Below the pieces are notes generated by a model. That model searched no databases and was not told the origin of the DNA. It was given only the letters and a program-made list of their open reading frames with translations. A stretch of 64,000 nt of DNA from Solwaraspora sp. WMMD406 (lineage in GTDB: Bacteria > Actinomycetota > Actinomycetes > Mycobacteriales > Micromonosporaceae). The DNA lies in the NCBI RefSeq assembly GCF_029626025.1, contig NZ_JARUBF010000001.1, forward strand, positions 1,426,001 to 1,490,000, given 5' to 3'. Positions 1 through 15,609 of this stretch are shown here, piece after piece (position 1 is the first letter of the stretch; each line of letters starts with the position of its first letter). A program made the position numbers and the translations under genes.

Positions 1-212
1 GGCATTCGGTGGCCAGCCACCCGAAGCTGCCGCGCGGCGCGTACGGGGTGGCCGGCGAGTCGCTGGGCGACATGGAGCAGCTGCTGTTCGGCCCGGCCGA
101 CGAGCCGGACGGGCAGCTCAACCTGTTCGGCGGGCTGCGCCGGGCGATGGCCAAGTGCGGCTACCGCGACCTCAAGGAGTTCCAGCGCGTGGGGCTGGTC
201 CTGGACCGGTGA
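1..212 (+). CDS. guaB3: GuaB3 family IMP dehydrogenase-related protein, C-terminal end (partial)
   Basis: Only the last 69 or so codons are present; the gene enters from the left edge in frame 3. The visible tail has the pattern of actinobacterial GuaB3 proteins: HPKLPRG, then LEQ-type LFGPA, then a glycine-rich GLRRAMAKCGY and the terminal LKEFQRV. GuaB3 is the IMP-dehydrogenase/GMP-reductase paralogue usually found near guaB and guaA in actinomycetes, which fits guaA at 15.6 kb. Its stop codon overlaps the GTG start of the next gene by GTGA, so the two are probably translationally coupled. The catalytic part lies outside the window, so activity cannot be judged. Confidence 0.8.
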   Translation, partial: HSVASHPKLPRGAYGVAGESLGDMEQLLFGPADEPDGQLNLFGGLRRAMAKCGYRDLKEFQRVGLVLDR

Positions 213-1672
213 CACCCAGCCGTAGCCGTAGCCGTAGCCGCAGCCGTAGCCGTACGTCGGTCGTCGCCGCGACGGTGGCGGTGGTGCTCGCCGCCGGTGC
301 CGCCAGCGCCGGCTGTGGCGTACTGCCGGTGCTGCTCGACCGGGCGTCGCAGCCGGCGGGCGACTTCGAGCCCGGCGCGGTCGGGATCGGCGACCCCTAC
401 TTCCCGTCGTACGGCAACGGCGGCTACGACGTCGCCGGCTACGAGTTGGCGTTGCGCTACGACCCGGCGACCCGCCAGCTCGACGGCACCGCCACGATCA
501 CCGCGACCGCGACCATGGACCTGTCCCGGTTCAACCTGGACCTGGCCGGCCTGGACGTCGCGGACGTCGACGTCGACGGCCGGCCGGCGCAGCACCGCCG
601 CGACGACGACGAACTGGTCGTCACCCCGGCCGCCGGGCTGCCCGACGGGTCGGCGTTCACCGTCGTCGTCGCGTACGGCGGCGAGCCGGAGCCGCTGATC
701 AGCCGCGACTTCGGTGAGGGTGGTTTTCAGGTCACCGACGACGGGGCGATCGCGCTCGGCCAGCCCGAGTCGGCCAGCACCTGGTTCCCGGTCAACGATC
801 ACCCGGCGGACAAGGCGACCTTCGACCTGGAGATCACCGTGCCGGACGGGCTGGCGGCGGTCAGCGTCGGCGCGCCGGGGGAGACGACCAGCGCCGACGG
901 CTGGACCACCTGGCGCTGGTCGGAGTCGACCCCGCTGGCCAGCTACCTGACCACCCTCGTGATCGGCGACTACCGGGTGGAGACCAGCACCCACGCCGGT
1001 CGGCCGATGGTGATCGCCGTCGACGCCGACCTGCCCGAGGGCGGCGCGGCCGAGCAGGCGATGGCCCGGACCGGGGAGATCGCCGACTACCTGGAGACGG
1101 TTTTCGGGCCGTACCCGGTGGACGCGTACGGCGGGATCGTGGTCCGTGACGACCGGATCCGCTACGCCCTGGAGACCCAGTCCCGGCCGGTGTACGGCGA
1201 CGTGTTCTTCGACCGTGGCCCGGAGACGTGGGTGGTGGCGCACGAGTTGGGCCACCAGTGGTTCGGCAACAGTGTGTCGCTGCTGCAGTGGCGGGACATG
1301 TGGCTCAACGAGGGCTTCGCGACGTACGCCGAATGGTTGTGGTCGGAGCACGACGGCGCGGCCACCGCCGACGAGATGTTCGACCGGGAGTACGAGCGCA
1401 CCGACTGGACGAACCCGGCGGGTGATCCCGGTCCGGCGGGGATCTTCAGCCAGGCGGTCTACAAGCGGGGCGGGATGACGGTGCACGCGCTGCGGCGCAC
1501 GGTCGGCGACGACGCGTTCTTCCGGTTGCTGCGGACCTGGGCGGCGGAGTACCGGGGCGGCAACGCCACCACCGAGCAGTTCGTCACGGTCGCCGAGCGG
1601 GTCACCGGACAGCCACTGCGGGAGTTCTTCGACGAGTGGCTGTACGGCGACACCGCCCCGGCGAAACCCTGA
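209..1672 (+). CDS. Exported M1 family zinc metallopeptidase
   Basis: Predicted zinc aminopeptidase-like enzyme of about 487 residues. The zinc site is clear: HELGH at residues 345-349 and the third ligand E368 in NEGFA, giving HExxH-18-E as in gluzincins of family M1. The N-terminal beta domain (about 50-240) fits M1 architecture, and the length suits the short actinobacterial M1 proteins without the large C-terminal helical domain. The GTG at 209 is preferred over an upstream GTG at 155 because it overlaps the guaB3 stop by 4 nt and puts an Arg-rich n-region directly before a hydrophobic segment (about 17-33) and a Cys, so the protein is probably exported, possibly as a lipoprotein (the SAGC lipobox is weak). 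The n-region contains six Ser-Arg repeats. The gene stands alone after guaB3 and its substrate is unknown. Confidence 0.88.
   Translation: MTPSRSRSRSRSRSRTSVVAATVAVVLAAGAASAGCGVLPVLLDRASQPAGDFEPGAVGIGDPYFPSYGNGGYDVAGYELALRYDPATRQLDGTATITATATMDLSRFNLDLAGLDVADVDVDGRPAQHRRDDDELVVTPAAGLPDGSAFTVVVAYGGEPEPLISRDFGEGGFQVTDDGAIALGQPESASTWFPVNDHPADKATFDLEITVPDGLAAVSVGAPGETTSADGWTTWRWSESTPLASYLTTLVIGDYRVETSTHAGRPMVIAVDADLPEGGAAEQAMARTGEIADYLETVFGPYPVDAYGGIVVRDDRIRYALETQSRPVYGDVFFDRGPETWVVAHELGHQWFGNSVSLLQWRDMWLNEGFATYAEWLWSEHDGAATADEMFDREYERTDWTNPAGDPGPAGIFSQAVYKRGGMTVHALRRTVGDDAFFRLLRTWAAEYRGGNATTEQFVTVAERVTGQPLREFFDEWLYGDTAPAKP
218..253 (+). repeat. Six-unit hexanucleotide repeat (agccgt) in the signal peptide region
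   Basis: Six tandem copies of agccgt (one copy agccgc) encode alternating Ser-Arg immediately before the hydrophobic export segment of the M1 peptidase. Changes in copy number would stay in frame and alter only the positive charge of the n-region. Confidence 0.9.
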
Positions 1673-1706
1673 TCGTCTTCTTATCGCTGGGTCGGCTGGC
1701 CGGTGC

Positions 1707-2723
1707 TCAGTCCGGGTCCGAGGCCAGGTCGTCCTCCTCGTCGTGGTAGTCCTGCATCAGCCGGGCCGGCGGCAGGTGCGACTCCGGGTCCGACGGGCGC
1801 GGGCCTTCCGGGCCGTCGGGTCCGACCCGGACGAAGGTCTCGACCCGGGTCACCCGGCAGCGGACCCCTTCGACCTCGAAATCGTCGGTACGGGGCGGCC
1901 GGTGCTCCTCGCGGGCCCGCTGGTACGCGGCCCGGAACTCGTCCAGCGAGGTGTCCTCGTCCAGGCGGATGTCGGGCATCACGAACGATCCGGCGTCCCG
2001 GGCACCCTGCGGGGTGGCGTACGTGGTGGCCGACCTGGGCCGCCAACTGCCGTCGACCAGCTTGCCGACGGTGAAGCCGACGGGCAGCAGCACCACGTTC
2101 GGGTGGGTGTCCATCGCCCGGCGGGAGTCGGCGTGCACGTCGGCGGCGACGGTCGCCGGATGGTAGGCCGACGAGATCAGCTCCACCCGGAGCAGTCCGC
2201 CGGTGAGCCCGGTGCTGGCGGCCGGGTCGATCACGACGTCGTCCAGGTGGGAGAAGTACTGTTCCGCTTCACCCGGCGGGTACGGGTCGGGGTCGGTGGG
2301 CCGGGGCGGCTCCGGCCCGTCAGGTCCCATCCGGATGAACGTCTGGGCGCGGATGATCCGGTATCGGTAGCCGTCGACGGTGAGTTCGTCGAGGGCCTCC
2401 CAGTCGAGCAGTTCGTAGATTTTCTCGTATTCGGCGCGGCGGGCGGCGTTTTCGGGGGTCGACGGTGTTTCGCTGTGCAGCCGGCGGAAGTGCGAGGCGA
2501 GGCTGTCGCGAGCATCCTGTGGGCTGTCGCCGTTGAGCCGGATGATCCGCCATCGGCCGTCGATTTCCTGGGCGCAGCCGAACACCGGGGCACCCCACAT
2601 GATGGTCGGATAGGCGGCGGCCCGCTGCCGGGCGTCGTCTTCGGAGACCAGCGATACGGGGTGGTCCGGCTGTTCGACCTTGATCAACAGGTGACTGGGC
2701 ACCTTGCTAGCGTCAAAGGGCAT
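1707..2723 (-). CDS. DUF5954 family protein
   Basis: Conserved actinobacterial protein of 338 residues with no known function, recognised as DUF5954 by its two related segments. Each half carries a block of the form R-x-R-(I/V)-x-R-x-(E/Q)-T-F-(I/V)-R-x-GPDGPE followed by PRP-(T/S)-DP, one mid-protein and one near the C terminus, so the protein looks like an internal duplication. No signal peptide or membrane segment is visible. The ATG at 2723 is chosen because homology begins around MPFDASKVP; the frame stays open further upstream but that part is low-complexity. It is transcribed alone, convergent with the M1 peptidase gene. Confidence 0.75.
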   Translation of the reverse strand: MPFDASKVPSHLLIKVEQPDHPVSLVSEDDARQRAAAYPTIMWGAPVFGCAQEIDGRWRIIRLNGDSPQDARDSLASHFRRLHSETPSTPENAARRAEYEKIYELLDWEALDELTVDGYRYRIIRAQTFIRMGPDGPEPPRPTDPDPYPPGEAEQYFSHLDDVVIDPAASTGLTGGLLRVELISSAYHPATVAADVHADSRRAMDTHPNVVLLPVGFTVGKLVDGSWRPRSATTYATPQGARDAGSFVMPDIRLDEDTSLDEFRAAYQRAREEHRPPRTDDFEVEGVRCRVTRVETFVRVGPDGPEGPRPSDPESHLPPARLMQDYHDEEDDLASDPD

Positions 2724-2910
2724 GTGCGCATTGTGATCCCATGGTGGCTGAGATCGCAGCCCCGCCACGTCCACAGTCGCCCCACAGTTTCGCGGTGGCT
2801 CCCCAGTTCTCTCCAAATTTCCACCGGCCACCCCCACTGGAGCTCCGATCGCCATGATCATTCGACGGAAATTCGGACGACACGCCGTTGGCGTCCTAGT
2901 TGATCAATTG

Positions 2911-3168
2911 TCATGTCGACTGTCGTTTGGGCAGTCGGTAGAGTCCACGGCGCTGGACGAAGATCTCGCGCCGTTCGGCGGCAAATCCGCGTTCGTCGAT
3001 GACGTAGCCGGTGAGCCAAACCCAACCGTGGTACGTCGGTTTCTGGTCGACAGAGATGACGCGGAACGTGAGCCGTCGGTCGCCGGCGAACTGGACGCTG
3101 GCGTGCGCGCCGATCAGCAGTACGTCACCGGGCTTCGGTTCGGGTGTGCGCAGGAGCTGGTTATTCAC
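2911..3168 (-). CDS. Small conserved hypothetical protein (85 aa)
   Basis: Soluble 85-residue protein beginning with GTG. The layout suggests a compact beta-rich domain: PKPGDVLLIGAHASVQF, then LTFRVISV, then TYHGWVWLTGYVID, ending in a basic segment. I recognise it only as a type of small protein found beside DUF397/Scr1 loci in Micromonospora-like genomes; no function is known to me. It is the last of four minus-strand genes in a tight cassette and overlaps the preceding gene by 8 nt, which supports it being a real, co-transcribed gene. Confidence 0.6.
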   Translation of the reverse strand: MNNQLLRTPEPKPGDVLLIGAHASVQFAGDRRLTFRVISVDQKPTYHGWVWLTGYVIDERGFAAERREIFVQRRGLYRLPKRQST

Positions 3169-3343
3169 GGGGCGGTGCGTCGCGGCGTGGTCGTTCGACG
3201 CCGTCGGCTCCTCGTTCGGTCGGCCAGGTGGTGAGCCCGCACTGGGGGCACCACCTGGACTTCACCGGGAACGAGAACAGTCCGGCGCAGAAGCCGAGCA
3301 GGGCCACGCCGATGAGCGCTCCGATCTCCATCGTCGACACCAT
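3161..3343 (-). CDS. Small membrane protein with CPxCG motif (60 aa)
   Basis: An ATG-initiated 60-residue protein. Residues about 5-25 form one hydrophobic helix (IGALIGVALLGFCAGLF), followed by a cytoplasmic-type basic stretch and a CPQCG knuckle at about 32-36 that could be half of a zinc ribbon. The tail is charged. It is third in the four-gene minus-strand cassette, 3 nt after the upstream gene and overlapping the next one. Function unknown; membrane tethering of a metal-binding knuckle is an inference. Confidence 0.55.
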   Translation of the reverse strand: MVSTMEIGALIGVALLGFCAGLFSFPVKSRWCPQCGLTTWPTERGADGVERPRRDAPPRE

Positions 3344-3346
3344 CTC

Positions 3347-3565
3347 TCACGTTCGGTTGGGTAGTGGGGCCGACCAGAGTCCGGACAGGTGCAGCACGGT
3401 ACGCAGCCGTCGGGCCTTGGCCGGGTCGTGGCGGTCGAGGATCGTCAACGCCCGCAGGAACGGCCGGCATGGTGTGGCCCGGCCACACGTACGGCAGACG
3501 CGCAGCCGGGTCGGCAGGTGCGCCCGTACGTCTTCCCGGGCCACACGTGCCGCGTCGCCGGTCAC
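3347..3565 (-). CDS. Small Cys-containing hypothetical protein (72 aa)
   Basis: GTG-initiated 72-residue basic protein with a CRTCG motif (about residues 24-28) and a further Cys nearby (ATPC), followed by a helical segment (FLRALTILDRHDPAKARRLRT). This could be a small zinc-binding or nucleic-acid-binding protein, but I do not recognise a family. Its start overlaps the stop of the DivIVA-like gene by 4 nt (GTGA), strong evidence for translational coupling and for the gene being real. Confidence 0.55.
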   Translation of the reverse strand: MTGDAARVAREDVRAHLPTRLRVCRTCGRATPCRPFLRALTILDRHDPAKARRLRTVLHLSGLWSAPLPNRT

Positions 3566-3963
3566 GCCGGCACCTGGGCACGGAACTGTTGCGACTGCCA
3601 GTCACGCAGCGCCTGCTTGATCCGTACGTTCTCGTCTGAGGTGGCGGCCAGGTCGGCGCGCAGCGCGGCCAGCTCGTCGGCGACCAGGTACAGGTAGGCG
3701 CGAACCTCGCCGGGGTCGCAGCCGCGCCGGGCGCGGTCCGGGAAGTAGCGGTCGCGGACCTGGACCGGGCTGATCGACAGCCGTGCCGCCGAGCCGGTGT
3801 TGTAGTGGGCACCAGCGTTGGGGCTGCGCCACGTCGGCGGACGACGTGACCCGGCCGCCGCCGCTGCCGCGTTGTTGCGGCTGTGGTGGCCGATCTCGGC
3901 GAGTAGCCGCCGGTGCCGTCGGCTCCGCACAGGGGTACGGAAGACGTCGAGAAGTCTGCGCAT
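3562..3963 (-). CDS. DivIVA-domain-like small protein
   Basis: A 133-residue protein whose C-terminal 70 residues resemble the N-terminal domain of DivIVA/Wag31: a short lead (LSISPVQVRDRYFP), a charged turn, DPGEVRAYLYLVADELAAL, and a continuing amphipathic helix that could form a coiled coil. The first 60 residues are basic and low in predicted structure. The ATG at 3963 is chosen because the upstream in-frame part is low-complexity. It heads a minus-strand cassette of four small genes that diverges from the Scr1-type regulator at 4259. DivIVA proteins sense membrane curvature at poles and septa; whether this short version does so is not shown by the sequence. Confidence 0.65.
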   Translation of the reverse strand: MRRLLDVFRTPVRSRRHRRLLAEIGHHSRNNAAAAAAGSRRPPTWRSPNAGAHYNTGSAARLSISPVQVRDRYFPDRARRGCDPGEVRAYLYLVADELAALRADLAATSDENVRIKQALRDWQSQQFRAQVPA

Positions 3964-4258
3964 GGGAGAGCCGCCCTTTCTGAGGTCACGGGTCGCGTTA
4001 CATCGGCAAGGGGTGTGACGTGACCGGGCGGGCATTGCCGTGACCCACCCGGTCACCTGGGATTTCAGCGAAAGAAGCGAGAAACGATCACGTCACGCGC
4101 CGTTTCCTGCGATCGACAGCCAGCCGGTTGATCAACTGTCCACCATCGACCCGTTGCCTACGGTGGCATCAAAATGGTGATCTTGCAACTCCCGCTAGTT
4201 CAGATTTTCTCTGATCTGGGACTCGCCAATCGACGCAAGATGCTGCACACTGTCCCCT
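3964..4258. promoter_or_regulatory. Divergent intergenic region with palindromes (candidate operators)
   Basis: About 295 nt separate two divergent transcription units. The region is less GC-rich than its flanks. It contains a perfect 10-bp palindrome gttgatcaac at 4127-4136, whose core ttgatcaa recurs at 2900-2907 behind the far end of the cassette, and an inverted pair gaaacg (4081) / cgtttc (4111). Palindromes here are natural candidates for binding by the XRE regulator encoded at 4259. This is inference from position only. Confidence 0.35.
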
Positions 4259-5170
4259 GTGGCAGGAATCCCAAGCGTTCAGCGCCGTCGACTCGCTTCG
4301 GAGCTTCGCGCACTTCGCGAATCCGCCGATCTGACGATCGACCAGGTGGCGCAGCAAGTGACGATCGGCAAGTCGACGCTGTCGCGCGTCGAGAACGCCC
4401 AGGTCTCAGTGACGCCGCGCAACGTCGCGAAGCTGCTGCGGCTTTACGGAGTAGCCGATGATGACGCCGCCGGGCTCATCCAGCTCGCCCACGACGCCCA
4501 GCAGTACAGCTGGTGGAACGACTACTCGAATGCCATGTCAGACGGGCTGGCCGGGTACGTTGCCTTCGAGGACGAGGCGACCCAGCTTCGCGCCTACGAT
4601 GTCCAACTCGTCAACGGGCTGCTCCAGACCGCCGAGTACACCCGCGCACTCCTACAAGCTGAGTTCCCGGAAGGTCCACCAGAGAAGATCGAGGAGCGGG
4701 TCGAGATCCGCCTCGCCCGGCAAAGGATCCTGGATCGGTCGAAGCCACCCAGGCTGTGGTTCGTTCTGGACGAAGCGGTACTGCATCGGCCGGTGGGCGG
4801 CCCGCAGGTAATGGCGGCGCAACTCGGGCACTTGATCACCACGGCTCAGCGGCCGTCGGTGACCGTTCAGGTGTTGCCGTTCCGGCAGGGTGCGCACATG
4901 GGCATGGGCGTGTCCTTCGCGCTGCTCGACTTCGGCGACCATCCGACGGTGGTCTACCAAGAAAATCTGAGTGGCGCTCTCTACCTGGACAAGGACTACC
5001 ATGTAGACACGCACGGGCTGGCGTTTGACCACCTCCGTGCGACCGCCCTCTCGCCCGCTGACACGCTGGCCTTCCTGCGAATGAGGGCGGAGGTGATGCT
5101 GGCGCAGGGAGCAAGGGAGAGCCCGAATGACGACCACCCCTCGTGGCCTGGACCAGGCGACCTGGCGTAA
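4259..5170 (+). CDS. XRE/Scr1-type transcriptional regulator with DUF5753 domain
   Basis: DNA-binding regulator of 303 residues. Residues about 10-70 form an XRE helix-turn-helix (LASELRALRESADLTIDQVA ... STLSRVENAQ), and about 95-275 match DUF5753, the ligand-sensing or protein-interaction domain typical of Streptomyces Scr1-like regulators (ending in DYHVDTHGLAFDHLRATALS). Family members are almost always paired with DUF397 genes, as here: the first DUF397 gene begins inside this one at 5127 and a second follows. Such pairs have been described as antitoxin-like regulator/partner systems in streptomycetes. The GTG start gives a normal N terminus for the family. Probable autoregulation and control of the divergent cassette are inferred from layout. 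Confidence 0.88.
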   Translation: MAGIPSVQRRRLASELRALRESADLTIDQVAQQVTIGKSTLSRVENAQVSVTPRNVAKLLRLYGVADDDAAGLIQLAHDAQQYSWWNDYSNAMSDGLAGYVAFEDEATQLRAYDVQLVNGLLQTAEYTRALLQAEFPEGPPEKIEERVEIRLARQRILDRSKPPRLWFVLDEAVLHRPVGGPQVMAAQLGHLITTAQRPSVTVQVLPFRQGAHMGMGVSFALLDFGDHPTVVYQENLSGALYLDKDYHVDTHGLAFDHLRATALSPADTLAFLRMRAEVMLAQGARESPNDDHPSWPGPGDLA

Positions 5171-5336
5171 AAGCACTCGTAGCAACGCGCAGGGCATGTG
5201 TGTCGAGGTCGCCACCAACGTCCCCGCGACAGTGCTTGTTCGCGACAGCAAGGACCCGGCGGGTCCGGCCCTCAGCTTCGCCCCCCACGGCTGGGCCGCC
5301 TTCGTCACCACTCTCAAGACCCACAGCCACCCCTGA
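5127..5336 (+). CDS. DUF397 domain protein (first copy)
   Basis: 69-residue protein consisting of a single DUF397 domain: TWRKSTRSNAQGMCVEVA near the N terminus, then LVRDSKDPAGPALSF and the aromatic WAAFV. The family occurs as the partner of DUF5753-type XRE regulators in actinomycetes. It starts 44 nt before the end of the regulator gene, in another frame, with a purine-rich agggaga stretch upstream as ribosome binding site, so the two are co-translated. Its biochemical role is unknown. Confidence 0.88.
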   Translation: MTTTPRGLDQATWRKSTRSNAQGMCVEVATNVPATVLVRDSKDPAGPALSFAPHGWAAFVTTLKTHSHP

Positions 5337-5378
5337 CCATCGGCGGTCGTCATGACCGCCTCCAGTGAAGGATGCGCG

Positions 5379-5570
5379 ATGAGTAGTGAGCAGACGCTGC
5401 AGTGGCGTAAGTCCAGCCGGAGCAGCAACGGTGGAGACACCTGCGTCGAGGTGGCCGACAACATCCCCGGCCGGGTGTACGTCCGGGACACCAAGGACCG
5501 CGACGGCGGGACCCTGACCTTCGAGCCAACCGCGTGGTCAGCGTTCGTCGAACTGGCCAAGTCTCGCTAA
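5379..5570 (+). CDS. DUF397 domain protein (second copy)
   Basis: A second, diverged DUF397 protein (63 residues) with LQWRKSSRSSNGGDTCVEVAD, VYVRDTKDRDGG and WSAFVEL. The ATG at 5379 is preferred over one at 5352 because gaagga sits about 7 nt upstream of it and homology begins there. It lies 42 nt after the first copy in the same apparent operon. Two non-identical DUF397 genes behind one regulator suggest more than one partner or target. Confidence 0.85.
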   Translation: MSSEQTLQWRKSSRSSNGGDTCVEVADNIPGRVYVRDTKDRDGGTLTFEPTAWSAFVELAKSR

Positions 5571-5584
5571 GCCAATCATCAGCG

Positions 5585-5622
5585 CCAGCGACCCCACGCC
5601 GAGCGTGGCGCGGGGTCGCTGG
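5585..5622. terminator. Bidirectional hairpin between convergent genes
   Basis: A 16-bp inverted repeat (ccagcgaccccacgcc, one mismatch) around a 6-nt loop lies between the second DUF397 gene and the converging STAND gene. Placement and symmetry suit a shared terminator; there is no T-run, as is common in actinomycetes. Confidence 0.7.
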
Positions 5623-5662
5623 GGCAGTGCGGCTGCCGGCAGCAGAGCCTGCCGGTCTCCAG

Positions 5663-8521
5663 TCAGACGGCGTCGGGGGCTGCCTCGTCTGCCTGGGGTG
5701 ACCTGGGCGACGGCGGTTTCGGGCGCTGACTGGCGGCAATTTCCTTCAGCTCAGCCAAGGTGGCTGCTGCTGCATCGCGATCTGTGGTGAACGCCTGCGG
5801 CTCAGCGGCTACGAGTTCGTCGAAGTAGCGCACACCTTCAGCGACAGCATCAAAGATCTGCTCCTGCGCCTCTCCAAGGAGATGCGCTATATACCCGATG
5901 CTCCACAGGGACCTGGCGAGGTCGGGTAGGTAGGCGTCGCGGTTAGTGGTGGCGAGTTCCCGGTAAAGGGTGAGGGCTTCTTGGCTGGTGGTGAGCGCTT
6001 CGGTGCGTTGTCCGGCTTCGGCCAGCCGGAGGGCGTGGTTGTTGAGTGACACGGCGAGGCCCGGTAGGTGGGTGTCGCGGTTGGTGGTGGCGAGTTCCCG
6101 GTCGAGGGTGAGGGCTTCTTGGCTGGTGGTGAGTGCTTCGGTGCGTTGTCCGGCTTCGGCCAGCCGGAGGGCGTGGTTGTTGAGTGACATGGCGAGGTGG
6201 GGTAGGTGGGCGTCGCGGTTGGTGGCGGTGAGTTCCCGGTAGAGGTTGACGGCTTCTTGGCTGGTGGTGAGTGCTTCGGTGCGTTGTCCGGCTTCGGCCA
6301 GCCGGAGGGCGTGGTTGTTGAGTGACATGGCGAGGTGGGGTAGGTGGGCGTCGCGGTTGGTGGCGGTGAGTTCCCGGCGCAGGTTGACGGCTTCTTGGCT
6401 GGCGGTGAGTGCTTCGGTGCGTTGTCCGGCTTCGGCCAGCCGGATGGCGTGGTTGTTGAGTGACATGGCGAGGTGGGGTAGGTGGGCGTCGCGGTTGGTG
6501 GCGGTGAGTTCCCGGTAGAGGTTGACGGCTTCTTGGCTGGTGGTGAGTGCTTCGGCCCGTCGTCCGACCTCGGCCAACAGGTCGGCGTGGTTGTTGAGTG
6601 ACATGGCGAGGTGGGGTAGGTGGGCGTCGCGGTTGGTGGCGGTGAGTTCCCGGCGCAGGTTGACGGCTTCTTCGCTGGTGGTGAGTGCTTCGGTGCGTCG
6701 TCCGGCTTCGGCCAGCCAGAGGGCGTGGTTGTTGACCGACCCGGCGAGGTCGGGTAGGTGGGTGTCGCGGTCGGTGGCGGCGAGTTCCCGGTAGAGGTTG
6801 ACGGCTTCTTCGCCGGCGGTGAGGGCTTCGGCCCGTCGTCCGACCTCGGCCAGCCGAACACTGTGTACGGTCAGTAGCGATGCCCGATCGCTGGACTCGA
6901 TCGTTGCCGCTGCGCCACGCAGGGCTTGAGTGGTCAACGCCAGCGCGACCCGGCCGAACTCGATCGACGGGTACGGCACCCGAAGCTCTATCCGCCTGAT
7001 CCAGTCAGCGTCGAGCTCAGCCGTTCCGAGCAGAATCGCCAGGCGGGGGGCGAGCACACCGGGGAACTGGAGGCCGACCTGGAGCACCGCCTCGGTCATC
7101 ACCGGCACGTCAGCGGCCAGCGCCACGTCGATCATCTGCGCGGCATCGGACTGGTGGGCATGGGCGCGACTCAGGACCGTCAGTGCCCGTACCGCCTGAT
7201 TGACAGCCAGACCGCGCACGATCGCGGCGCGTTCGGACGGGGAGCTTTCGCGGAGCACCGCGACCGCGAGGTCCTCCGCGAGCAGATCCGGCTGCAACGT
7301 CCCCAACCCACCACCCGTCGCCGCCGACGGGTACAGCGCGAACAACCAGCTCACATAGCTGTCCACCAGCTCCGGTGGCGCCTCACCTAGCCCCGGCACC
7401 CGGCGGACCAGATCCACCGCCTGCGCACGGTCGTCCGCGCCCAGCAGCGCCGCCACGGCGACCAGCCGCCGCAACACCGCGTCGGTAGCCGGTTCACCCA
7501 CCCCCGGCAGCCCGTCGCGGCGAGCCCGGTGCCGCCAATACCGGGCCTCATGGCCCAGCACCTCGCCCAGCACGTCGTACCGGTCGTCACCACGCGGCCC
7601 GCCCAACACCGCCAGCAGCGCCTGCGCGTGCAACCGCAACACCGGAACATCCGGACCCGCCTCCGCCACCGCGACCTCACCCGGATGGTGGCGACCCAGC
7701 CGACCAGCGAACGCCGTCACCGCGTCCGTCACCATCTGCTGCGGACTGTGGCCCTCGATCTCGGCCGGGACCTCCAGCACGTTCGCCGACACCGTCAGCG
7801 CGTCCACCAGATGTGCCTGCGGCGGGTACGCCGCCGACAACGACGACCACCACAACCCGACCGACCGGGCCAGCAACAACACTCGTACGCCACCAGCCCG
7901 TTGTGCGGCGCACATCAGGTGCGCCAACTTCGCCGGATCGCGGGTCTCGGCATAGTCGACTGTCAACAGCACCCTGCCCGGTCGGTCGCCCGCCTCAAGC
8001 CGCTCGGCGACCGTCTCCTCTCGGTCAGGGGCCACCGGCCACCACTGCCAACCCGTCGACCGGCGGGCGAAGTGCTGCGCCAACCGGGTCTTGCCCACCC
8101 CACCCGCACCCACGAGCAGCCGGACCGCGCTCGCACCCGGATCCGCGCACCACCTGTCCAGCGCCGTCAGCAGCCACCCACGACCGACGAACCCGACCAC
8201 CGCTGCCTGCGGATGCAGCAGCCACGCCACCGACTCCGGCAACTCCGCCACCAGCGCCCCGCCGACTACCCGATTCCGCTGTTCCCGCCGCTCCCGCCCC
8301 TGCCGAACCCGGTCCAGCACCGACGGCGCGAACGCGCCTGCGACGGCCGCCGCTACGCCAGCGACCACCGTCCAGGCTGGCTTGTCATCCGCGACCAGCG
8401 CCCACACGGCTGCCGTCGCGACCACTGCGGGAACCAGCACCACCCACCAGTACCTCTGGACCCATCGCCAGCACGCTCGGAGCACTCCCGCACAATACTG
8501 AAAGTGATCAAACCGCCACAT
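5663..8521 (-). CDS. Membrane-anchored STAND-type NTPase with TPR repeats
   Basis: Large 952-residue protein of signal-transduction ATPase (STAND) type. Two hydrophobic segments near the N terminus (about 25-43 and 50-66) should anchor it in the membrane. An NTPase module follows: Walker A GAGGVGKTR at about 138-146, Walker B-like RVLLTVDYAE at 183-192, and a sensor-like VRVLLLARS at about 212-220. After a helical arm (about 230-540) come seven 46-residue TPR units from about 551 to 872 and a degenerate eighth, then a Pro-rich tail. In this family the TPR part senses a ligand, the NTPase oligomerises and the N-terminal segment is the effector; a membrane effector would be consistent with an immune or death-inducing role, but that is inference. 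It converges on the Scr1/DUF397 genes. The TPR units are nearly identical at DNA level, a sign of recent expansion or gene conversion. Confidence 0.82.
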   Translation of the reverse strand: MWRFDHFQYCAGVLRACWRWVQRYWWVVLVPAVVATAAVWALVADDKPAWTVVAGVAAAVAGAFAPSVLDRVRQGRERREQRNRVVGGALVAELPESVAWLLHPQAAVVGFVGRGWLLTALDRWCADPGASAVRLLVGAGGVGKTRLAQHFARRSTGWQWWPVAPDREETVAERLEAGDRPGRVLLTVDYAETRDPAKLAHLMCAAQRAGGVRVLLLARSVGLWWSSLSAAYPPQAHLVDALTVSANVLEVPAEIEGHSPQQMVTDAVTAFAGRLGRHHPGEVAVAEAGPDVPVLRLHAQALLAVLGGPRGDDRYDVLGEVLGHEARYWRHRARRDGLPGVGEPATDAVLRRLVAVAALLGADDRAQAVDLVRRVPGLGEAPPELVDSYVSWLFALYPSAATGGGLGTLQPDLLAEDLAVAVLRESSPSERAAIVRGLAVNQAVRALTVLSRAHAHQSDAAQMIDVALAADVPVMTEAVLQVGLQFPGVLAPRLAILLGTAELDADWIRRIELRVPYPSIEFGRVALALTTQALRGAAATIESSDRASLLTVHSVRLAEVGRRAEALTAGEEAVNLYRELAATDRDTHLPDLAGSVNNHALWLAEAGRRTEALTTSEEAVNLRRELTATNRDAHLPHLAMSLNNHADLLAEVGRRAEALTTSQEAVNLYRELTATNRDAHLPHLAMSLNNHAIRLAEAGQRTEALTASQEAVNLRRELTATNRDAHLPHLAMSLNNHALRLAEAGQRTEALTTSQEAVNLYRELTATNRDAHLPHLAMSLNNHALRLAEAGQRTEALTTSQEALTLDRELATTNRDTHLPGLAVSLNNHALRLAEAGQRTEALTTSQEALTLYRELATTNRDAYLPDLARSLWSIGYIAHLLGEAQEQIFDAVAEGVRYFDELVAAEPQAFTTDRDAAAATLAELKEIAASQRPKPPSPRSPQADEAAPDAV
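5906..6871 (-). repeat. Seven tandem 138-bp repeats encoding 46-aa TPR units
   Basis: The period is exactly 138 bp (for example the NN codons end at 6733, 6595, 6457, 6319, 6181 and 6043). The consensus unit holds NNHALRLAEAGQRTEAL, then EAVNLYREL and NRDAHLPHLAMSL. Inner copies differ by only a few bases, whereas the outermost ones are more diverged, as expected for array growth from the middle. The count stays in frame whatever the copy number. Confidence 0.93.
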
Positions 8522-8601
8522 GGCCGATCATCCCAAGGTGGCAGCCATACGTTCAGCTGGCCGATGAGCGCGAAAGTCGGTCTCCCGAGTCACTGCACGC
8601 T

Positions 8602-8663
8602 GTCGAGTTGAGGGCTGGCGTACGTAATTTTCGCGGATAACGTACGTGAGCCCTCAACTCGAC
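8602..8663. repeat. Long inverted repeat in a divergent intergenic region
   Basis: Perfect 15-bp arms (gtcgagttgagggct at 8602-8616 and its complement at 8649-8663) continue inward with a second 7-bp pairing built on gtacgt (8619-8625 with 8640-8646), leaving a 14-nt AT-rich loop. It lies upstream of both the STAND gene and the toxin-antitoxin operon, so it is not an ordinary terminator of either. It may be a regulatory structure or a remnant of a small non-autonomous element. Confidence 0.75.
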
Positions 8664-8903
8664 GCGGCCCGCCATCTCGGGAAGGGCTCGACGCGGTGGA
8701 GTGGTGGCGTTCCGGCCTCTCCCGATCTGCTGCGAGTAGCGCGAGATCGGATGATTGACCTTGGCGGTTCCGCGACCGACCGCGACGAGGATCGGCGATA
8801 TGTCACTTTATGTCGGTTTGGGTGTGCCGGGTGCGCACGCCTTTCGGGCCGCAACGCCAGCCGAGGTGGACAGCGCCTCGGTGCGTGCGCCACAATTGTG
8901 GCC

Positions 8904-9170
8904 ATGACTACCGAACCGCTGCGCGGCGTCCGTGACCACCTCTCAGAGTACGTCGACCGGGTCGAACGTGAGCATGAGCGGATCGTGCTTACCCGCAACG
9001 GCCGCGCCGCAGCAGTATTGATCAGCCCGGAGGACCTGGCCCAACTGGAGGAGACCATCGACGTGCTGCGGGATCCGCAGGCCCTGGCTGACATCCGCGA
9101 GGCCGACGCCGCGTACGCCCGCGGTGACGTAGTCCGGGGTGCCGAGGCGGTGCGTGAGCTGCGCAGGTGA
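8904..9170 (+). CDS. Phd/YefM-family antitoxin
   Basis: 88-residue antitoxin with the typical Phd/YefM N-terminal dimerisation and DNA-binding fold: LRGVRDHLSEYVDRVEREHERIVLTRNGRAAAVLISPEDLAQLEE, followed by an acidic C-terminal tail that would wrap the toxin. The ATG at 8904 is used because an in-frame GTG far upstream (8646, inside the inverted repeat) would add 86 residues with no family similarity. The stop overlaps the toxin start by GTGA, the classic coupled arrangement. Such antitoxins normally repress their own promoter, which would lie between 8664 and 8903. Confidence 0.9.
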   Translation: MTTEPLRGVRDHLSEYVDRVEREHERIVLTRNGRAAAVLISPEDLAQLEETIDVLRDPQALADIREADAAYARGDVVRGAEAVRELRR

Positions 9171-9439
9171 ACGAGTATGAACTGGTCGTAACCCCACCCG
9201 CGCGACGCGCGCTCGCGAAGACCCTGCCCGAGTCGGTCGCGGCCGCAGCAATCGAATTCCTGACCAACACCTTGGTGCACAACCCGCATCGAGTGGGGAA
9301 ACCGCTGCAGTTCGAATTAGCGGGCGTTTGGGCTGCACGTCGCGGGACCTACCGCGTGCTCTACCGAATCAACGAGAACGCACGCGAGGTCGTCGTGCTG
9401 CGCATAGAACACCGGCGGGACGCCTACCGCCCTATGTAA
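9167..9439 (+). CDS. RelE/ParE-superfamily toxin
   Basis: 90-residue toxin of the RelE type. Visible features are the opening YELVVTPPARRALAKTLP, the central basic HRVGKPLQFELAGVWAARRGTYRVLYRI, and the ending EVVVLRIEHRRDAYR, where conserved Arg and a terminal His-Arg segment are typical of mRNA-cleaving RelE toxins. GTG start coupled to the antitoxin by a 4-nt overlap. Expected action is ribosome-dependent mRNA cleavage, inferred from family; the key Arg and Tyr-like positions are present, so it is probably active. Confidence 0.9.
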   Translation: MNEYELVVTPPARRALAKTLPESVAAAAIEFLTNTLVHNPHRVGKPLQFELAGVWAARRGTYRVLYRINENAREVVVLRIEHRRDAYRPM

Positions 9440-9488
9440 GGTGAAAATCACCCTGGAGCTTGCCGGGCACGTCCGGCACGATCGGTGC

Positions 9489-10088
9489 GTGAGTGTTCCG
9501 TACCGCCAGATCCGGGCCGCGTTCGACGAGCAGACCGTCACCGTCTACCAGGCGTACGCGCCGGAGATCGCCGCCCCGGCGGTGGCCGCCGGTCGGTTCG
9601 TGCCACCGTTCAAGCGCGAGCGGATGACCTGGATCAAGCCGTCGTTCCTCTGGATGATGTACCGCAGCGGCTGGGCGTCCAAGCCCGGCCAGGAGCGGGT
9701 GCTGGCGGTCAGGATCCTCCGCAGTGGATTCGAGGCGGCGCTCGCTCAGGCGTGCCTCAGCCACTACGACCGCGACCTGTATCCGGACCAGGCCGCCTGG
9801 GCGCGGCTCGTGCAGACCAGCCAGGTCAGGGTCCAGTGGGACCCGGAGCGGTCACCGTCGCTCGGCCCGCTGCCGTACCGGTCGCTGCAGGTCGGCCTGT
9901 CCGGCCAGGTCGTCGACCGGTACGTCGACGAATGGATCGTCGGCATCAGCGACGTGACCGACCAGGCGCATGCGATCCGGGACCAGCTCGCCGCCGCCGA
10001 CGGGCCCGTCCCACCCGGCCTGTCGCCCGTTGAGCGGCCGTACCCGCTGCCCGCCGCGATCGGGGCGACCATCGGCGTCACCTCGTGA
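9489..10088 (+). CDS. DUF4291 family protein
   Basis: 199-residue protein matching DUF4291: opening PYRQIRAAFDEQTVTVYQAYAPEIA, the hallmark MTWIKPSFLWMMYRSGW, and a later VQWDPERSP with PYRSLQVGL. The family is widespread in bacteria and fungi with no established function. GTG at 9489 puts the family start (PYRQIRA) at residue 4; an in-frame GTG at 9441, directly after the toxin gene, would add 16 residues without similarity. It follows the toxin-antitoxin pair by about 50 nt and could be read through from it. Confidence 0.82.
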   Translation: MSVPYRQIRAAFDEQTVTVYQAYAPEIAAPAVAAGRFVPPFKRERMTWIKPSFLWMMYRSGWASKPGQERVLAVRILRSGFEAALAQACLSHYDRDLYPDQAAWARLVQTSQVRVQWDPERSPSLGPLPYRSLQVGLSGQVVDRYVDEWIVGISDVTDQAHAIRDQLAAADGPVPPGLSPVERPYPLPAAIGATIGVTS

Positions 10089-10219
10089 TGTCGCGTGGTC
10101 ACCGATTCAGTGCATCGGTGGCCATCACGCCCACCCGGCGGGGTCAGGCCGCCCCGTACCACCGTCGCCACGTCGGCCCCGGCCAGACAGGGCTGTCGGT
10201 CAACCGAGGGCTGACAGGC

Positions 10220-10225
10220 TAGTTT
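10220..10225 (+). promoter_or_regulatory. TAnnnT -10 box for a leaderless transcript
   Basis: TAGTTT ends 6 nt before the ATG at 10232, so transcription would start at or next to the start codon. No Shine-Dalgarno sequence is present, consistent with a leaderless mRNA. Confidence 0.5.
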
Positions 10226-10231
10226 GCTGGG

Positions 10232-10675
10232 ATGAGTCTCCTCGATGAGGTCGCGGTCCGGGACGGTTGGCGATGCTGGGTGTGCGATGAGCCGGTCGAC
10301 GCCGACAAGCCGGTGAACGATCCGCGTGGTCTCAGCATCGACAGCCGTACCGCCGACAAGAAGGCCAAGGTCGTCGAGCGACTCGCGCATCGGGCCTGCA
10401 ATACCCGCAAGGGCGCGGTCAAGGTGGTCATCGCCTGGCCGGACCGGCTGCGGGTGGTGGAGCCCGCGCCGCTGATCGCCGTCGCCGAGCGGCTCGAACG
10501 CAAAGGTGGCCGGGAACTGGTTGCCCGCTGCCCGAGCAGGAAGGATGCCCAAGAGGCGGCGGACTGGCTGGTCGACCGGTTCTCCCGGCTGGTGCCTGGC
10601 CTGCCGGTGACCGCGAGCGTCGACGCGGGCGGTGGACAGTACCTCGTCGCTCTCGCCACCGGCCGCCGCCGCTGA
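10232..10675 (+). CDS. HNH-endonuclease-like protein
   Basis: 147-residue protein whose first half has the look of an HNH nuclease or its zinc knuckle: RDGWRCWVCDEPVD, a spacer with DPRGLSIDSRT, then LAHRACNTRKG. The CxxC pair plus the H-x2-CN element resemble the metal-binding frame of HNH domains; the usual first catalytic His position (after the CxxC, in a DHxxP motif) is not evident, so nuclease activity is uncertain. The C-terminal half is a different alpha/beta region. It probably has its own leaderless promoter (box at 10220). Function unknown; neighbours suggest an accessory region. Confidence 0.6.
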   Translation: MSLLDEVAVRDGWRCWVCDEPVDADKPVNDPRGLSIDSRTADKKAKVVERLAHRACNTRKGAVKVVIAWPDRLRVVEPAPLIAVAERLERKGGRELVARCPSRKDAQEAADWLVDRFSRLVPGLPVTASVDAGGGQYLVALATGRRR

Positions 10676-10716
10676 CGGCGGCCCCGATCGTGGCCATGTG
10701 GTGGGAGTCGCGGTGA

Positions 10717-11082
10717 CGGCTACATCTGGCGGTGAACGCCGAAAAGCAGCCAACAGCCGAGGCCACGGACAGGGCCCTACGGGTGCGCGACGTCATGCCG
10801 GCAGCCTGGGACAACGTCGAGGTGGACACCTGGACCGGCCTGACCACCGCCTACTGCCTGAGCCGCGGTGCCTCGGTCATCGTTCGTGGTCTGCGTACGG
10901 CCGCCGACCTCGGCTACGAGTACCAACTCGCTTCGATGAACGAGCGACTCGGCGTCCAGACCGTCTGGTTACCGTCCCGTCCGCAGCTGGCCGCCACATC
11001 GTCCACGGTCACCCGCGCATACCGCTCGGCACAGTCGGCCCGTTCCCGGACACCGCAGCTTCCGCCCGAGCAGCCAGGTTGA
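10717..11082 (+). pseudogene. coaD: Truncated phosphopantetheine adenylyltransferase (CoaD) remnant
   Basis: The reading frame resembles the middle of CoaD, the enzyme joining ATP and 4'-phosphopantetheine in CoA synthesis: RLHLAVNAEKQP, then NVEVDTWTGLTTAYC, GASVIVRGLRTAADLGYEYQ and MNERLGVQTVWLPS. The first 30 or so residues, including the GSFDPxTxGH nucleotide-binding motif, are absent; a TGA at 10714-10716 sits just before the recognisable part. The C terminus also diverges after about residue 90. Translation could start at GTG 10732 but the product could not bind ATP normally. A functional coaD should exist elsewhere in the genome. The similarity is judged by eye. Confidence 0.7.
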
Positions 11083-11116
11083 TCCCATGAGGGGATCACA
11101 ATCCCCTCGCGGGATC
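11081..11116. terminator. Two-part hairpin after the coaD remnant
   Basis: An outer 6-bp stem (gatccc/gggatc) and an inner perfect 8-bp stem (gaggggat/atcccctc) with a caca loop are separated by a symmetric 2-nt bulge. It lies between two convergent genes and may terminate transcription from both sides. Confidence 0.6.
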
Positions 11117-11194
11117 AGACAACACGAGGCTATGGCCTGCTGACGCGCGTGTCCCGAGAGCCAGCTGCCGAGCTCGGGATCCGGTGGCTGGCTC

Positions 11195-11722
11195 CTACGG
11201 GAGGAGGTCGAGTGCCCACAGCACCCCGAAACCGATCCCGGCGAAGGCGCCGGTCACGGCGACCAGAGCGAACGGGCCGACGATGTCGCGGATCAGGTTG
11301 CCCACCGGTGCGGGCCTCGGCAGCAGCTCGGTCTGGCCGCTCGGGACGTGTCGGCGGACGAGGACGGACTCGCTCACCCGGCCCGGGTCCCAGGCCCCGG
11401 TGTGGATGGTGCAGGTGAAGTCCGGGCCCTTCAGATGCGCGGTGAAGACGGTGTCGGAATCGGCGTTGTAGCGGCGCTCCTTGTCGGTCAGTACCGCCCG
11501 CACATCCTCCCCGAACAGCCTGAGCTGCCAGGACCGCCAAAGCATGAGTACGCCCTGCGCGGTCTGCCGGACGCCGATGAGGAAGATGAGGCTGCCGCCG
11601 ACACCGATCAGCCACCGGTCGGTGCCGCCGTCTCGCGAAACCAGACGGGCCACGACGCCGGCGAGCACGACCGCAGCCAGTGCGTAGCCGACCATCCGAG
11701 GCAGGCTTCGACGCTTTCCCAC
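11195..11722 (-). CDS. Membrane protein of unknown function
   Basis: Protein of about 175 residues with predicted membrane helices at about 10-28 (MVGYALAAVVLAGVVARLV), 38-58 (WLIGVGGSLIFLIGV) and near the C terminus (IVGPFALVAVTGAFAGIGFGVLWAL). Between them is a soluble domain containing GEDVRAVLTDKERRYNADSDTVFTAHLKGPDFTCTIHT, reminiscent of DUF3592-like modules that sit between membrane helices. GTG at 11722 is chosen because it directly precedes a basic segment and the first helix; the frame remains open upstream to 11809. Function unknown. Confidence 0.6.
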   Translation of the reverse strand: MGKRRSLPRMVGYALAAVVLAGVVARLVSRDGGTDRWLIGVGGSLIFLIGVRQTAQGVLMLWRSWQLRLFGEDVRAVLTDKERRYNADSDTVFTAHLKGPDFTCTIHTGAWDPGRVSESVLVRRHVPSGQTELLPRPAPVGNLIRDIVGPFALVAVTGAFAGIGFGVLWALDLLP

Positions 11723-11807
11723 GCGCCCAGCATCTCCGACAGCGTCAACCGGGTCGCCTGTGCTGGCACACCGACATCGAGGCGTCGGATGGGGAAGACT
11801 GGCGGGC

Positions 11808-12398
11808 ATGGCTGACCCGGGCGATGCGAAAACCGCGCTGCTTCTCTACCTTCGGGGCACTCGCGAGGACCTGATCTGGAAGCTCGACGGGCTGAGCGAA
11901 CGCGAAGCCAGGCTGCCCCGTACCGCGACCGGCACCAACCTGCTGGGGATCCTCAAACACTGTCTCAATGTCGAAGCCGGCTACTTCGGGCCGACCTTCG
12001 GCCGCGAGTTCCCGACGCCTGGAGAACTGGTTCCCATGGCGGCGTTCGAGGCGGACCCGCAAGCAGACTGGTACGCGCGGGAGGACGAGACGAAGGACGG
12101 GCTGATCGACCTCTATCACCGGGTCGGGACGTTCGCGGATCAGACGATCGAACAGCTACCGCTCGACGCGCCGGGCCGGGTGGCGTGGTGGCGGCCCGAT
12201 GCCCAGGCCGTGACGCTGCAACGGATCATCATCCATGTGACCTGCGACCTGGCCCGCCACGCCGGTCACGCGGACATCCTGCGTGAGCAGCACGACAGCG
12301 CGATCGGCCTGCGTCGGGACAACACCAACATCCCCGACGACCACGACTGGCCGGCGTACGTCGCCAAGCTGACCACGCTGGCCGACCGTTTTGGATAG
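11808..12398 (+). CDS. DinB/DUF664 family protein
   Basis: 196-residue four-helix-bundle protein of the DinB superfamily (DUF664). Likely metal ligands are visible as His residues in LLGILKHCLNVEAGYFG (first) and IIIHVTCDLARHAGHADILRE (second and third), the standard H...HxxxH layout. Actinobacterial members include thiol S-transferases using mycothiol or bacillithiol and maleylpyruvate isomerase relatives; the substrate here is unknown. ATG at 11808 starts the family similarity (KTALLLYLRGTREDLIWKLDGLSE). Monocistronic in appearance. Confidence 0.85.
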   Translation: MADPGDAKTALLLYLRGTREDLIWKLDGLSEREARLPRTATGTNLLGILKHCLNVEAGYFGPTFGREFPTPGELVPMAAFEADPQADWYAREDETKDGLIDLYHRVGTFADQTIEQLPLDAPGRVAWWRPDAQAVTLQRIIIHVTCDLARHAGHADILREQHDSAIGLRRDNTNIPDDHDWPAYVAKLTTLADRFG

Positions 12399-12454
12399 CC
12401 CGCTGGCTGACACCGCGCCGTCGATGTCGCTGGCCTGGGGCTACGGTCTGCGCC

Positions 12455-12841
12455 ATGGACGACAACGTGGTGGCAGCGCGACGTGCCGCCAACGCCTACG
12501 TGGATCGCCTGGAGCGCCGTGACTGGCCGGGGTTGGCGGCCCTGCTCGCCGACGACGTGGTCTACGAACTGCCGCAGACCCGGGAGCGCGTTCGCGGCAA
12601 AGATGCATTTTTGCGATTCAACGTCGAATATCCCGGTGACTGGCATCTGCGGGCACGACGAGTGATCGCCGAGGGTCGGTTCGCCGCGCTGTGGCTCGAC
12701 GTACGGGTCGGCCCCGACCAGCAGGACGCCTGCGTCTGGCTGGAGACCTCCGAGCACGGGCTGATCACCAAGATCATCGACTACTGGCCCGAGCCGTACG
12801 ATCCGCCGCAGGGCCGGGAACACCTTGTCGAGCGGTGGTGA
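12455..12841 (+). CDS. NTF2-like (SnoaL-type) protein
   Basis: 128-residue single-domain protein with the NTF2/SnoaL cone fold pattern: N-terminal helix ANAYVDRLERRDWPGLAALLADDVVYE, a glycine-containing strand region, then CVWLETSEHGLITKIIDYWPEPY, the typical closing strands of the family. Such proteins may be small isomerases, hydrolases or ligand binders; no catalytic residues stand out. A TACGGT box at 12442-12447 lies 7 nt before the ATG, so the transcript is probably leaderless. No link to the neighbouring DinB gene other than position. Confidence 0.8.
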   Translation: MDDNVVAARRAANAYVDRLERRDWPGLAALLADDVVYELPQTRERVRGKDAFLRFNVEYPGDWHLRARRVIAEGRFAALWLDVRVGPDQQDACVWLETSEHGLITKIIDYWPEPYDPPQGREHLVERW

Positions 12842-12887
12842 CCAGGGGTCGGTTGGCCCAGGACGATTCAGCGGCCGTCAACGGTCG

Positions 12888-13175
12888 TCAACCAGCACGA
12901 ACGGTCAGTTGGACGCGGACGATGTCGTCGAGGTCGATGTTCTCCTTCTTGCGTACCGAGTCCCGCAGCGGGAGGACGTAGCCACCGTCCTTGGGGAACA
13001 ACGAGGTCCGCCATCGGCTCCGCCCGAGCCGTACCTCGACAGGCACCATTCCCCAGCCGTACGTGACCGCCGATGCCCACTCGCGTACCACCTCGGTGGA
13101 CTCGTCCGGAATCGACACGAAGTGGTACGGCGACGGCCCACGCCACTCCCACACCACGCCCTCGAACTCCAGCAC
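12888..13175 (-). CDS. DUF1905 domain protein
   Basis: 95-residue protein matching DUF1905: FEGVVWEWRGPSPYHFVSIPDE, a central WGMVPVEVRLGRSRWRTSLFPKDGGYVLPL, and the ending NIDLDDIVRVQL. In many bacteria DUF1905 is fused to a YdeI/OmpD-associated domain in a single polypeptide. Here the YdeI-type gene lies immediately upstream on the same strand (43 nt away) but as a separate and frameshifted gene. Function unknown; the fold is a small beta-barrel by family. Confidence 0.85.
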   Translation of the reverse strand: MLEFEGVVWEWRGPSPYHFVSIPDESTEVVREWASAVTYGWGMVPVEVRLGRSRWRTSLFPKDGGYVLPLRDSVRKKENIDLDDIVRVQLTVRAG

Positions 13176-13217
13176 GTCACCAGGCTACGGAACTCGGCGT
13201 CCTCCTGCCGTACGTGA

Positions 13218-13837
13218 TCATGACGTGGCCGATCGCGGCGGCTCCGGCGGCGTGGCCTTCTGCGGGTAGATCGTTTCGTGCCGGGCCAGCATGGCGACGA
13301 CCTCGCGGATCTTCCGTTCGCGGGTTTCCGCCCGCTTGACGCTGTTCACCCGGTGGATGATGGCGAAGCGATTGGTGCTGGTCAGGACGTCGAACATGGC
13401 CTGGGCGTCGGGGTCGGCGGCGATCGCGGCGAGCAGATCGGCCGGCACCTGGGCTTCCGAGGGCGGCGCGTAGGCGGCCGCCCACCGTCCGTCCGCCTTG
13501 GCCGCCGCCACGACGGCGCGGCCGGCCGGCGTCATCAACCCTTGCGCCTCCAACCGGGCCACGTGGGCGACATTGCGCTGTGACCAGGAACTGCGGGGCC
13601 GGCGTGGGGTGTACCGGATCCAGGAGGTCTGCTCGTCCCGTTTGCGGGCCTGCCCGTCGATCCAGCCGAAGCACAGCGCCTCGTCGACCGCCTGCTGCCA
13701 GGTCAACGTGGTGACGGTACCGCCCTTTTGGTCAGGGCGAGCCAGACTCCGGGCGACGTGGCGTGGTTGACCGACAACCAGGCGCGCAACGCATCGGCGT
13801 CCGCGACGATCAACTCGTCCAGTTCGGCGCTTCCCAT
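13218..13837 (-). pseudogene. Frameshifted YdeI/OmpD-associated family gene
   Basis: Two adjoining frames together make one YdeI-family protein of about 206 residues. From the ATG at 13837 the first frame reads MGSAELDELIVADADALRAW and on to GVWLALTK; the second continues KGGTVTTLTWQQAVDEALCFGWIDGQ, the family signature, then RYTPRRPRSSWSQRN. The switch falls in the run tttt at 13726-13729 (AAAA on the coding strand), where one A more would restore the frame. This is either a recent loss-of-function mutation or a homopolymer sequencing error. The family is tied to acid-stress and peptide-resistance phenotypes in a few species, but its biochemistry is unclear. Confidence 0.85.
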
Positions 13838-13891
13838 GGCCGCAGGCTAGCCGGTGTGCCACGGCTGGTGCCGGGCGGTGATGATGGCGGG

Positions 13892-15547: not shown

Positions 15548-15603
15548 CCATCGACCGAACGTCGCCACCTGAACCATCGTCAGGACGGTCGGACGACGGT
15601 CGG

Positions 15604-15609
15604 TAGGCT
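15604..15609 (+). promoter_or_regulatory. TAGGCT -10 box immediately before guaA
   Basis: TAGGCT ends 7 nt before the guaA ATG and fits the actinobacterial TAnnnT consensus. Transcription would begin at the start codon, giving a leaderless mRNA. No Shine-Dalgarno sequence is seen. Confidence 0.55.

Follow-up and report, generated by a model that had tools for sequence, protein, structure and literature searches.

The closest described relatives of the locus analysed here are the WhiJ/BldB-type modules of Streptomyces. WhiJ paralogues are reviewed as numerous in each genome, with small genes adjoining them (PMC4255298), and the DUF397-HTH pairs of S. pratensis are reported to be highly divergent, with signs of transfer (PMC4239341). 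In S. venezuelae, the slot beside the regulator is occupied by abaA paralogues or by iosA; the same study reports that iosA activation requires WhiJ9, which binds the DNA between iosA and whiJ9, that loss of BldB raises the abaA paralogues and iosA, and that over-expression of iosA or abaA6 produces a sporulation defect (PMC10294661).

The 64,000-nucleotide stretch of DNA analysed here (the window) contains a regulator-DUF397 module of this type, with a cassette of four small genes, g1 to g4, diverging from it. The reading that we favour, with a probability of about 0.55, is that these genes are the output operon of the module, stand in its abaA/iosA "target" slot, and act as a brake on growth or sporulation at the hyphal tip or septum.

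The cassette and the neighbouring regulator module

All four genes lie on the minus strand: g1 (3963-3562; 133 amino acids, ATG start), a truncated g2 (3565-3347; 72 amino acids, GTG start), g3 (3343-3161; 60 amino acids, ATG start) and g4 (3168-2911; 85 amino acids, GTG start). An earlier note on this DNA had described four small, tightly packed genes, and this description is borne out: g1 and g2 overlap by 4 nt, g2 and g3 are separated by 3 nt, g3 and g4 overlap by 8 nt, and each frame is intact, with a single terminal stop. Purifying selection is apparent for g2-g4, whose dN/dS against hand-picked paralogue rows was 0.08-0.24 in 14 of 16 comparisons, the remaining two, both of g3, giving 0.31 and 0.51; for g1, with rows likewise hand-picked, it was 0.47-0.57 in five of five comparisons, indicating weaker constraint. 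By this measure the four frames look like real genes, paralogue dN/dS being blind to whether selection acted before or after the recombination joint described below was formed.

The lead gene had been called DivIVA-like in the same note, and three lines of evidence agree. The TIGR03544 DivIVA domain is recognized in g1 at 22.6 bits (cut-off 22); a profile of 21 chosen g1 homologues finds DivIVA, GpsB and Wag31 chains as the best 11 of its 14 PDB matches (E 1.4e-4 to 0.03); and the Pfam DivIVA model, which gives 18.1 bits on the window protein alone (gathering score 28), is matched at E <=0.1 by all 21 of those family members. DivIVA-family proteins feature a long C-terminal coiled coil. In common with DivIVA, GpsB and Wag31, g1 has a DivIVA/GpsB-type N-domain (approximately residues 62-121, within 3562-3963, minus strand); unlike them, it carries a basic, variable N-terminal half ahead of this domain and ends only 12 residues past the Pfam match. 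Since the long coiled coil is absent, a tip localization of g1 is a guess.

The other three proteins conform to their initial description as a Cys-knuckle protein, a single-helix membrane protein with CPxCG and a small beta protein. The g2 sequence follows the pattern H-x7-C-x2-C-x5-C, and in the family alignment the H, a P, an R and the C-x2-C-x5-C are nearly invariant; its predicted structure consists of three helices (pLDDT 84.5), for which a fold search against the PDB gave no useful match (best E 3.4). The window copy is about 45 N-terminal residues shorter than its nearest paralogues. The only clear transmembrane stretch among the four proteins is that of g3, a single hydrophobic segment (mean hydropathy 2.23 over 19 residues) followed by CPQCG. 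For g4, the AlphaFold model is that of a small, beta-rich protein (pLDDT 88.6), whose fold search returned weak matches to small beta folds (eIF5A/EF-P, Tudor, MazF), the best being eIF5A at E 0.028 and none reaching E <0.001; MazF falls in the E 0.7-0.9 range together with many small beta proteins. Pfam searches up to E 1 gave no match for g2, g3 or g4. The family alignment of g4 comprises 41 of 45 rows (L056, L064, L067 and L109 being left out), and a further cassette family, g6, aligns to it in a profile comparison (probability 91.7). The four proteins may form a small membrane complex controlled by Scr1, as the earlier note proposed.

As that note had also stated, the cassette diverges from a regulator gene. 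This gene (4259-5170, plus strand) encodes an HTH-DUF5753 protein of the WhiJ/Scr1 type (HTH_31, E 2e-15; DUF5753, E 3.7e-65), and behind it stand two genes for DUF397 (BldB-like) proteins identified by Pfam, a (5127-5336) and b (5352-5570), both on the plus strand. The combination of an HTH_Xre + DUF5753 regulator with adjacent DUF397 genes is that of a WhiJ/BldB-type module; the NF058600 model (Sco1979 family) scores 279.7 on the regulator, under its cut-off of 350. No AbaA-type HATPase occupies the neighbouring slot of the window module. Of the 31 genome matches to PF13581 (AbaA-type ATPase), just one comes within 9 kb of a regulator among the 49 counted below, and that one is co-directional. 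Since the slot can be filled by a different gene, as it is by iosA, we do not take AbaA as required for such a module.

Within the divergent intergenic region, a 27-nt block (4117-4143) that includes GTTGATCAAC (palindrome at 4127-4136) is kept in two sister loci, L105 and L109, the only ones among the compared loci, duplicates left out, that carry it without a mismatch; it is a candidate promoter or operator element. A scan of 2600-5700 found no sigma-70-like promoter and no terminator. The WhiJ9-type direct repeat CGNNCTCAAC was considered as an operator and is absent from the intergenic region. Both results count against the favoured reading.

A multi-copy family that exchanges cassettes and regulators

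The genome (7.16 Mb, 3 contigs) contains 55 DUF5753 matches, 49 of them at >=140 bits. Stretches of 10-15 kb were fetched around all 49 regulators and around the g1-g4 homologues from whole-genome searches (apart from two weak homologues, one of g3 at 6.085 Mb and one of g4 at 2.971 Mb), and were annotated with profiles built from the same genome; g5 and g6 were sought in these stretches only. The fetched stretches hold 14 copies of g1, 17 of g2, 20 of g3, 19 of g4, at least 9 of g5 and at least 12 of g6, of which 3/14, 15/17, 11/20, 10/19, 5/9 and 12/12, respectively, are divergent from a DUF5753 gene. This amounts to 39 of 70 for g1-g4, and to 56 of 91 when g5 and g6 from the fetched stretches are included. 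Divergent cassette genes (g1-g6) accompany 24 of the 49 regulators, and one other has only a co-directional cassette gene; the automated count was 26 of 54 regulator entries, which include split-frame genes and fragments and were condensed by hand to 24 clusters, each with one of the 49.

The link between the cassette and DUF5753/DUF397, which the earlier note had proposed, is far from random, given the 39 divergent homologues out of 70. Its notion of a fixed four-gene set fails on the test that it had itself named: the exact set occurs at no other locus examined. Sub-sets are found instead, g2-g3-g4 at three other loci of the same genome, and g1 with g4, g3 being present or absent, at two loci of this genome and six of sister genomes. 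Three counts weigh against the cassette being a regulatory output: no DUF5753 gene diverges from 31 of the 70 g1-g4 homologues, among them 11 of the 14 for g1; these profiles find no cassette gene for 25 of the 49 regulators; and a regulator above 60 bits stands at only 8 of the 58 g1-like loci found in named genomes. The truncated g2 and the missing g5 of the window copy weigh against it as well. The remaining cassette copies in the fetched stretches have no regulator within 2.5 kb, including L038, which has a regulator fragment.

A quick regulator tree was built from 46 of the 49 proteins, those at 0.436, 1.910 and 3.145 Mb (the last with a g2 cassette) being dropped by a length or score filter; its support is modest, with 14 of 43 inner branches open. 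On this tree, the presence of g2 requires 8 changes where shuffling gives 12.3 on average, a value as low being reached in 1 of 300 shuffles; any cassette versus none requires 12 against 15.6 (13/300), and three cassette states require 15 against 19.7 (4/300). The clustering of g2 implies that regulator clade and cassette type partly go together and, taken with the swaps described below, that their pairing is neither random nor fixed.

Beyond this genome, homologues of g1 occur in 22 of 61 genomes of the family and those of g4 in 49 of 61. The g2 profile at E <=0.001 finds 3 of 296 genomes of the class, namely our own and two weak matches, in a survey that scored at most 18 candidates per genome and may have missed some; g2 is additionally present at L107 of the sister genome G034. 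The 58 g1-like loci come from a set of named genomes from which our own and its nearest relatives may have been left out, and they belong mostly to Micromonospora, some to Plantactinospora, and a few to distant and doubtful cases. At the 8 loci with a regulator above 60 bits, all 9 cassette genes are divergent from it, and 3 more loci have a weaker regulator match. At L160:5374-6569 (Plantactinospora) and L193:5980-6476 (Micromonospora), a second small gene of similar appearance stands behind a g1-like gene; the g1-like gene of L160 is divergent from what we take to be a GntR-like gene.

The whole module of the window falls within a stretch (2834-9461) for which the six sister genomes have no match at this site, and which is therefore variable within the genus. 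In five of these genomes the conserved flank, with the aminopeptidase gene and DUF5954, reaches to 2762-2833, and in the sixth to 1799; conserved DNA resumes at 9462 or later. Five sister genomes have the aminopeptidase gene and DUF5954 side by side, DUF5954 being interrupted by a stop in G060, and the sixth keeps a DUF5954 remnant adjoining the aminopeptidase gene. When the window proteins were compared with the six genomes, the module was not found at this place in any of them, and a related module was found about 5 kb away in G064. A DUF5954 search in genome contigs returned no relative, and no tRNA insertion site was found in 1-20000. The window also encodes a 952-residue NTPase-TPR protein (5663-8521), with a weak match to the FxSxx-COOH TPR family; a 31% relative adjoins the regulator of the g2-g6-g1 cassette at L107. 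A frame at 8646-9170 resembles a Phd/YefM-type antitoxin.

Comparison of the copies shows that both whole cassettes and whole regulators have been exchanged between members of the family. The cassettes of L047 and L049 share 94% DNA identity over 1149 bp, while their regulators share 32% at the protein level; for L057 and L059, the corresponding values are 90% over 1043 bp and 37%. The block common to the swapped cassettes extends from a short leader to just past g5, and near its end, behind g5, both L057 (5608-5664) and L059 (5546-5602) have a perfect inverted repeat of 22 bp around a 13-nt loop, possibly a terminator. Upstream of g3 in L057 (4640-4870), a frame apparent by eye carries a g2-like CRCG..PC motif that is not caught by the g2 profile. 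The reverse exchange is seen at L105 (G034) and L109 (G060), which represent the same locus: the cassette side is 96% identical over 2856 bp and the DUF397 side 92% over 517 bp, whereas the regulators between these flanks (L105:3460-4514, L109:6029-7223) are only 33% identical. The joints lie just past GTTGATCAACCGTCCAC and inside DUF397.

By the same kind of comparison, the window copy is a recombinant mosaic, with a g1 resembling that of g3-g4-g1 cassettes, a truncated g2 and g3-g4 as in g2-g3-g4-g5 cassettes, and g5 missing. Its DNA is 84-89% identical to six cassettes, from g2 onwards in L047, L048 and L049, and from g3 onwards in L057, L058 and L059. The match to the first three begins at 3538-3542, inside g2, which is longer in those copies, and the match to all six stops exactly at 2900, at the start of TTGATCAA; directly beyond this motif, the six have GGAG, resembling a ribosome site, and then the start of g5, a gene that was looked for in the window and not found. 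Two more distant cassettes, L060 and L061 (74-79%), match only to 2929. The window g1 is 66-71% identical to that of the g3-g4-g1 cassettes (L037, L105, L109, L155) and 62-64% to that of L039, L040, L106, L107 and L111, and its 5' leader matches L039 at 84% over 63 nt. The intergenic region and regulator module resemble L105 (regulator 81%, DUF397 80%), where the cassette order is g3-g4-g1 rather than g1-g2-g3-g4, so that one regulator type is seen with two cassettes.

This structure raises the alternative, which we consider doubtful, that the window copy is a decaying recombinant that has lost g5 and the g2 N-terminus, the cassettes elsewhere being functional. The joints at about 3540 and 2900 and the missing g5 speak for it, and other reduced or broken copies do exist: L062 keeps g3, g5 and, in a by-eye reading, a g2 start; L038 is left with only a regulator fragment; and in L039 (5271-6506) an inserted stretch splits g1 and contains a reading frame that resembles a transposase, which we take to be of the ISAs1 family. 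Against this stand the intact, tightly packed frames and the low paralogue dN/dS of g2-g4, although selection before and after the joint cannot be told apart by that measure.

The TTGATCAA motif was also considered in its own right. It occurs four times in the window (2900, 4128, 2680 and 34280) against 0.14 expected; 80 times genome-wide, compared with 4 for the reversed control pattern and 16 to 31 by Markov models from the fetched loci, scaled up; and 29 times in the fetched loci, which span 697 kb (694 kb once overlaps are removed) and would be expected to hold 1.5-3. The earlier note had seen the copies at 2900 and 4128 as one pair flanking the cassette, an idea that the comparison does not bear out: the distal copy (2900-2907), where the homology to the six cassettes ends, belongs to the sequence around the start of g5, which is missing here, and sister loci preserve only the one at 4128. 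Other copies fall, in a by-eye reading, in a g5 ribosome-site context, at a probable g2 start or in coding frames, and a role of the motif as a paired operator is therefore rejected. Mobile-element ends were considered as well, two recombination joints coinciding with the motif (2900 and L105/L109); that both window copies lie at or near recombination joints may be chance.

Candidate roles of the cassette

In the favoured reading, in which the cassette is the output operon of its module, g1-g4 would be co-transcribed under the control of the neighbouring gene. The regulator would most likely bind the shared 295-bp intergenic region and activate the cassette, while the DUF397 proteins, by analogy with S. 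venezuelae, would restrain its activity. The cassette would yield a set of small basic and membrane proteins, which the DivIVA domain of g1 may bring to the membrane at hyphal tips or septa, and its high expression would act as a brake on growth or sporulation, a developmental role that we infer. The approximately 24 cassette-regulator loci of the genome trade whole cassettes and regulators by recombination, the window copy being one such recombinant.

An unlikely alternative is a role of cassette and regulator in conflict or addiction, as a toxin-antitoxin-like or anti-phage module in which harmful small proteins are silenced by the regulator and DUF397. The many recombining copies with different regulators would suit such a system, as would the finding that searches of six sister genomes did not detect the module at this site; a toxin-antitoxin function has been proposed for HTH-DUF397 pairs (PMC4239341), and MazF is among the weak fold matches of g4; yet PADLOC gives no match for g1-g4 up to E 1, and the literature shows no clear toxicity of DUF397 proteins. 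It is very improbable that the cassette is a mere passenger, carried in a locus prone to recombination and not tied to its neighbour by regulation: cassettes and regulators are indeed exchanged and many cassette genes lack a regulator, but 24 regulator genes have divergent cassettes, a single one has a co-directional cassette gene only, and g2 is associated with a regulator clade.

More speculative still than the conflict module is a reading of the family as a whole. The two dozen or so interchangeable modules could form a combinatorial repertoire, like those of polymorphic recognition or growth control, in which regulator and DUF397 would set when, and the cassette what, is placed at the hyphal tip or septum, and recombination, both in the intergenic block and within DUF397, would reassort the two. 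Mycelial actinobacteria carry tens of copies of WhiJ/BldB-type modules, few of whose targets are known; with its small protein families, one of them bearing a cell-pole domain, the target slot described here supplies concrete candidates outside Streptomyces. The natural swaps, in which the cassette is kept and the regulator changed, or the regulator type kept and the cassette changed, are ready-made tests of specificity.

Comparison with described systems

In the open-access literature, we found no paper describing these cassettes, and a search for DivIVA with DUF397 turned up DivIVA only as a reference-list entry. The Scr1/Scr2 pair (XRE-DUF397) of S. coelicolor has the same regulator and DUF397 architecture; its described role is to activate antibiotic production, and we saw no small-gene cassette reported with it. 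The bldB/hpb pairs of Streptomyces likewise show unusually high divergence and incongruent trees, as reported in PMC4239341. With the WhiJ-BldB-AbaA/IosA loci of Streptomyces, such as whiJ9-bldB9-iosA, the present locus shares the HTH-Xre regulator, the DUF397 partner, one or more genes in the adjacent slot and the many paralogues per genome. It differs from them in what fills the slot, which here is a multi-gene cassette of DivIVA-domain, Cys-knuckle, membrane CPxCG and small beta proteins, with no HATPase (AbaA), and in that cassettes and regulators here reassort as whole units.
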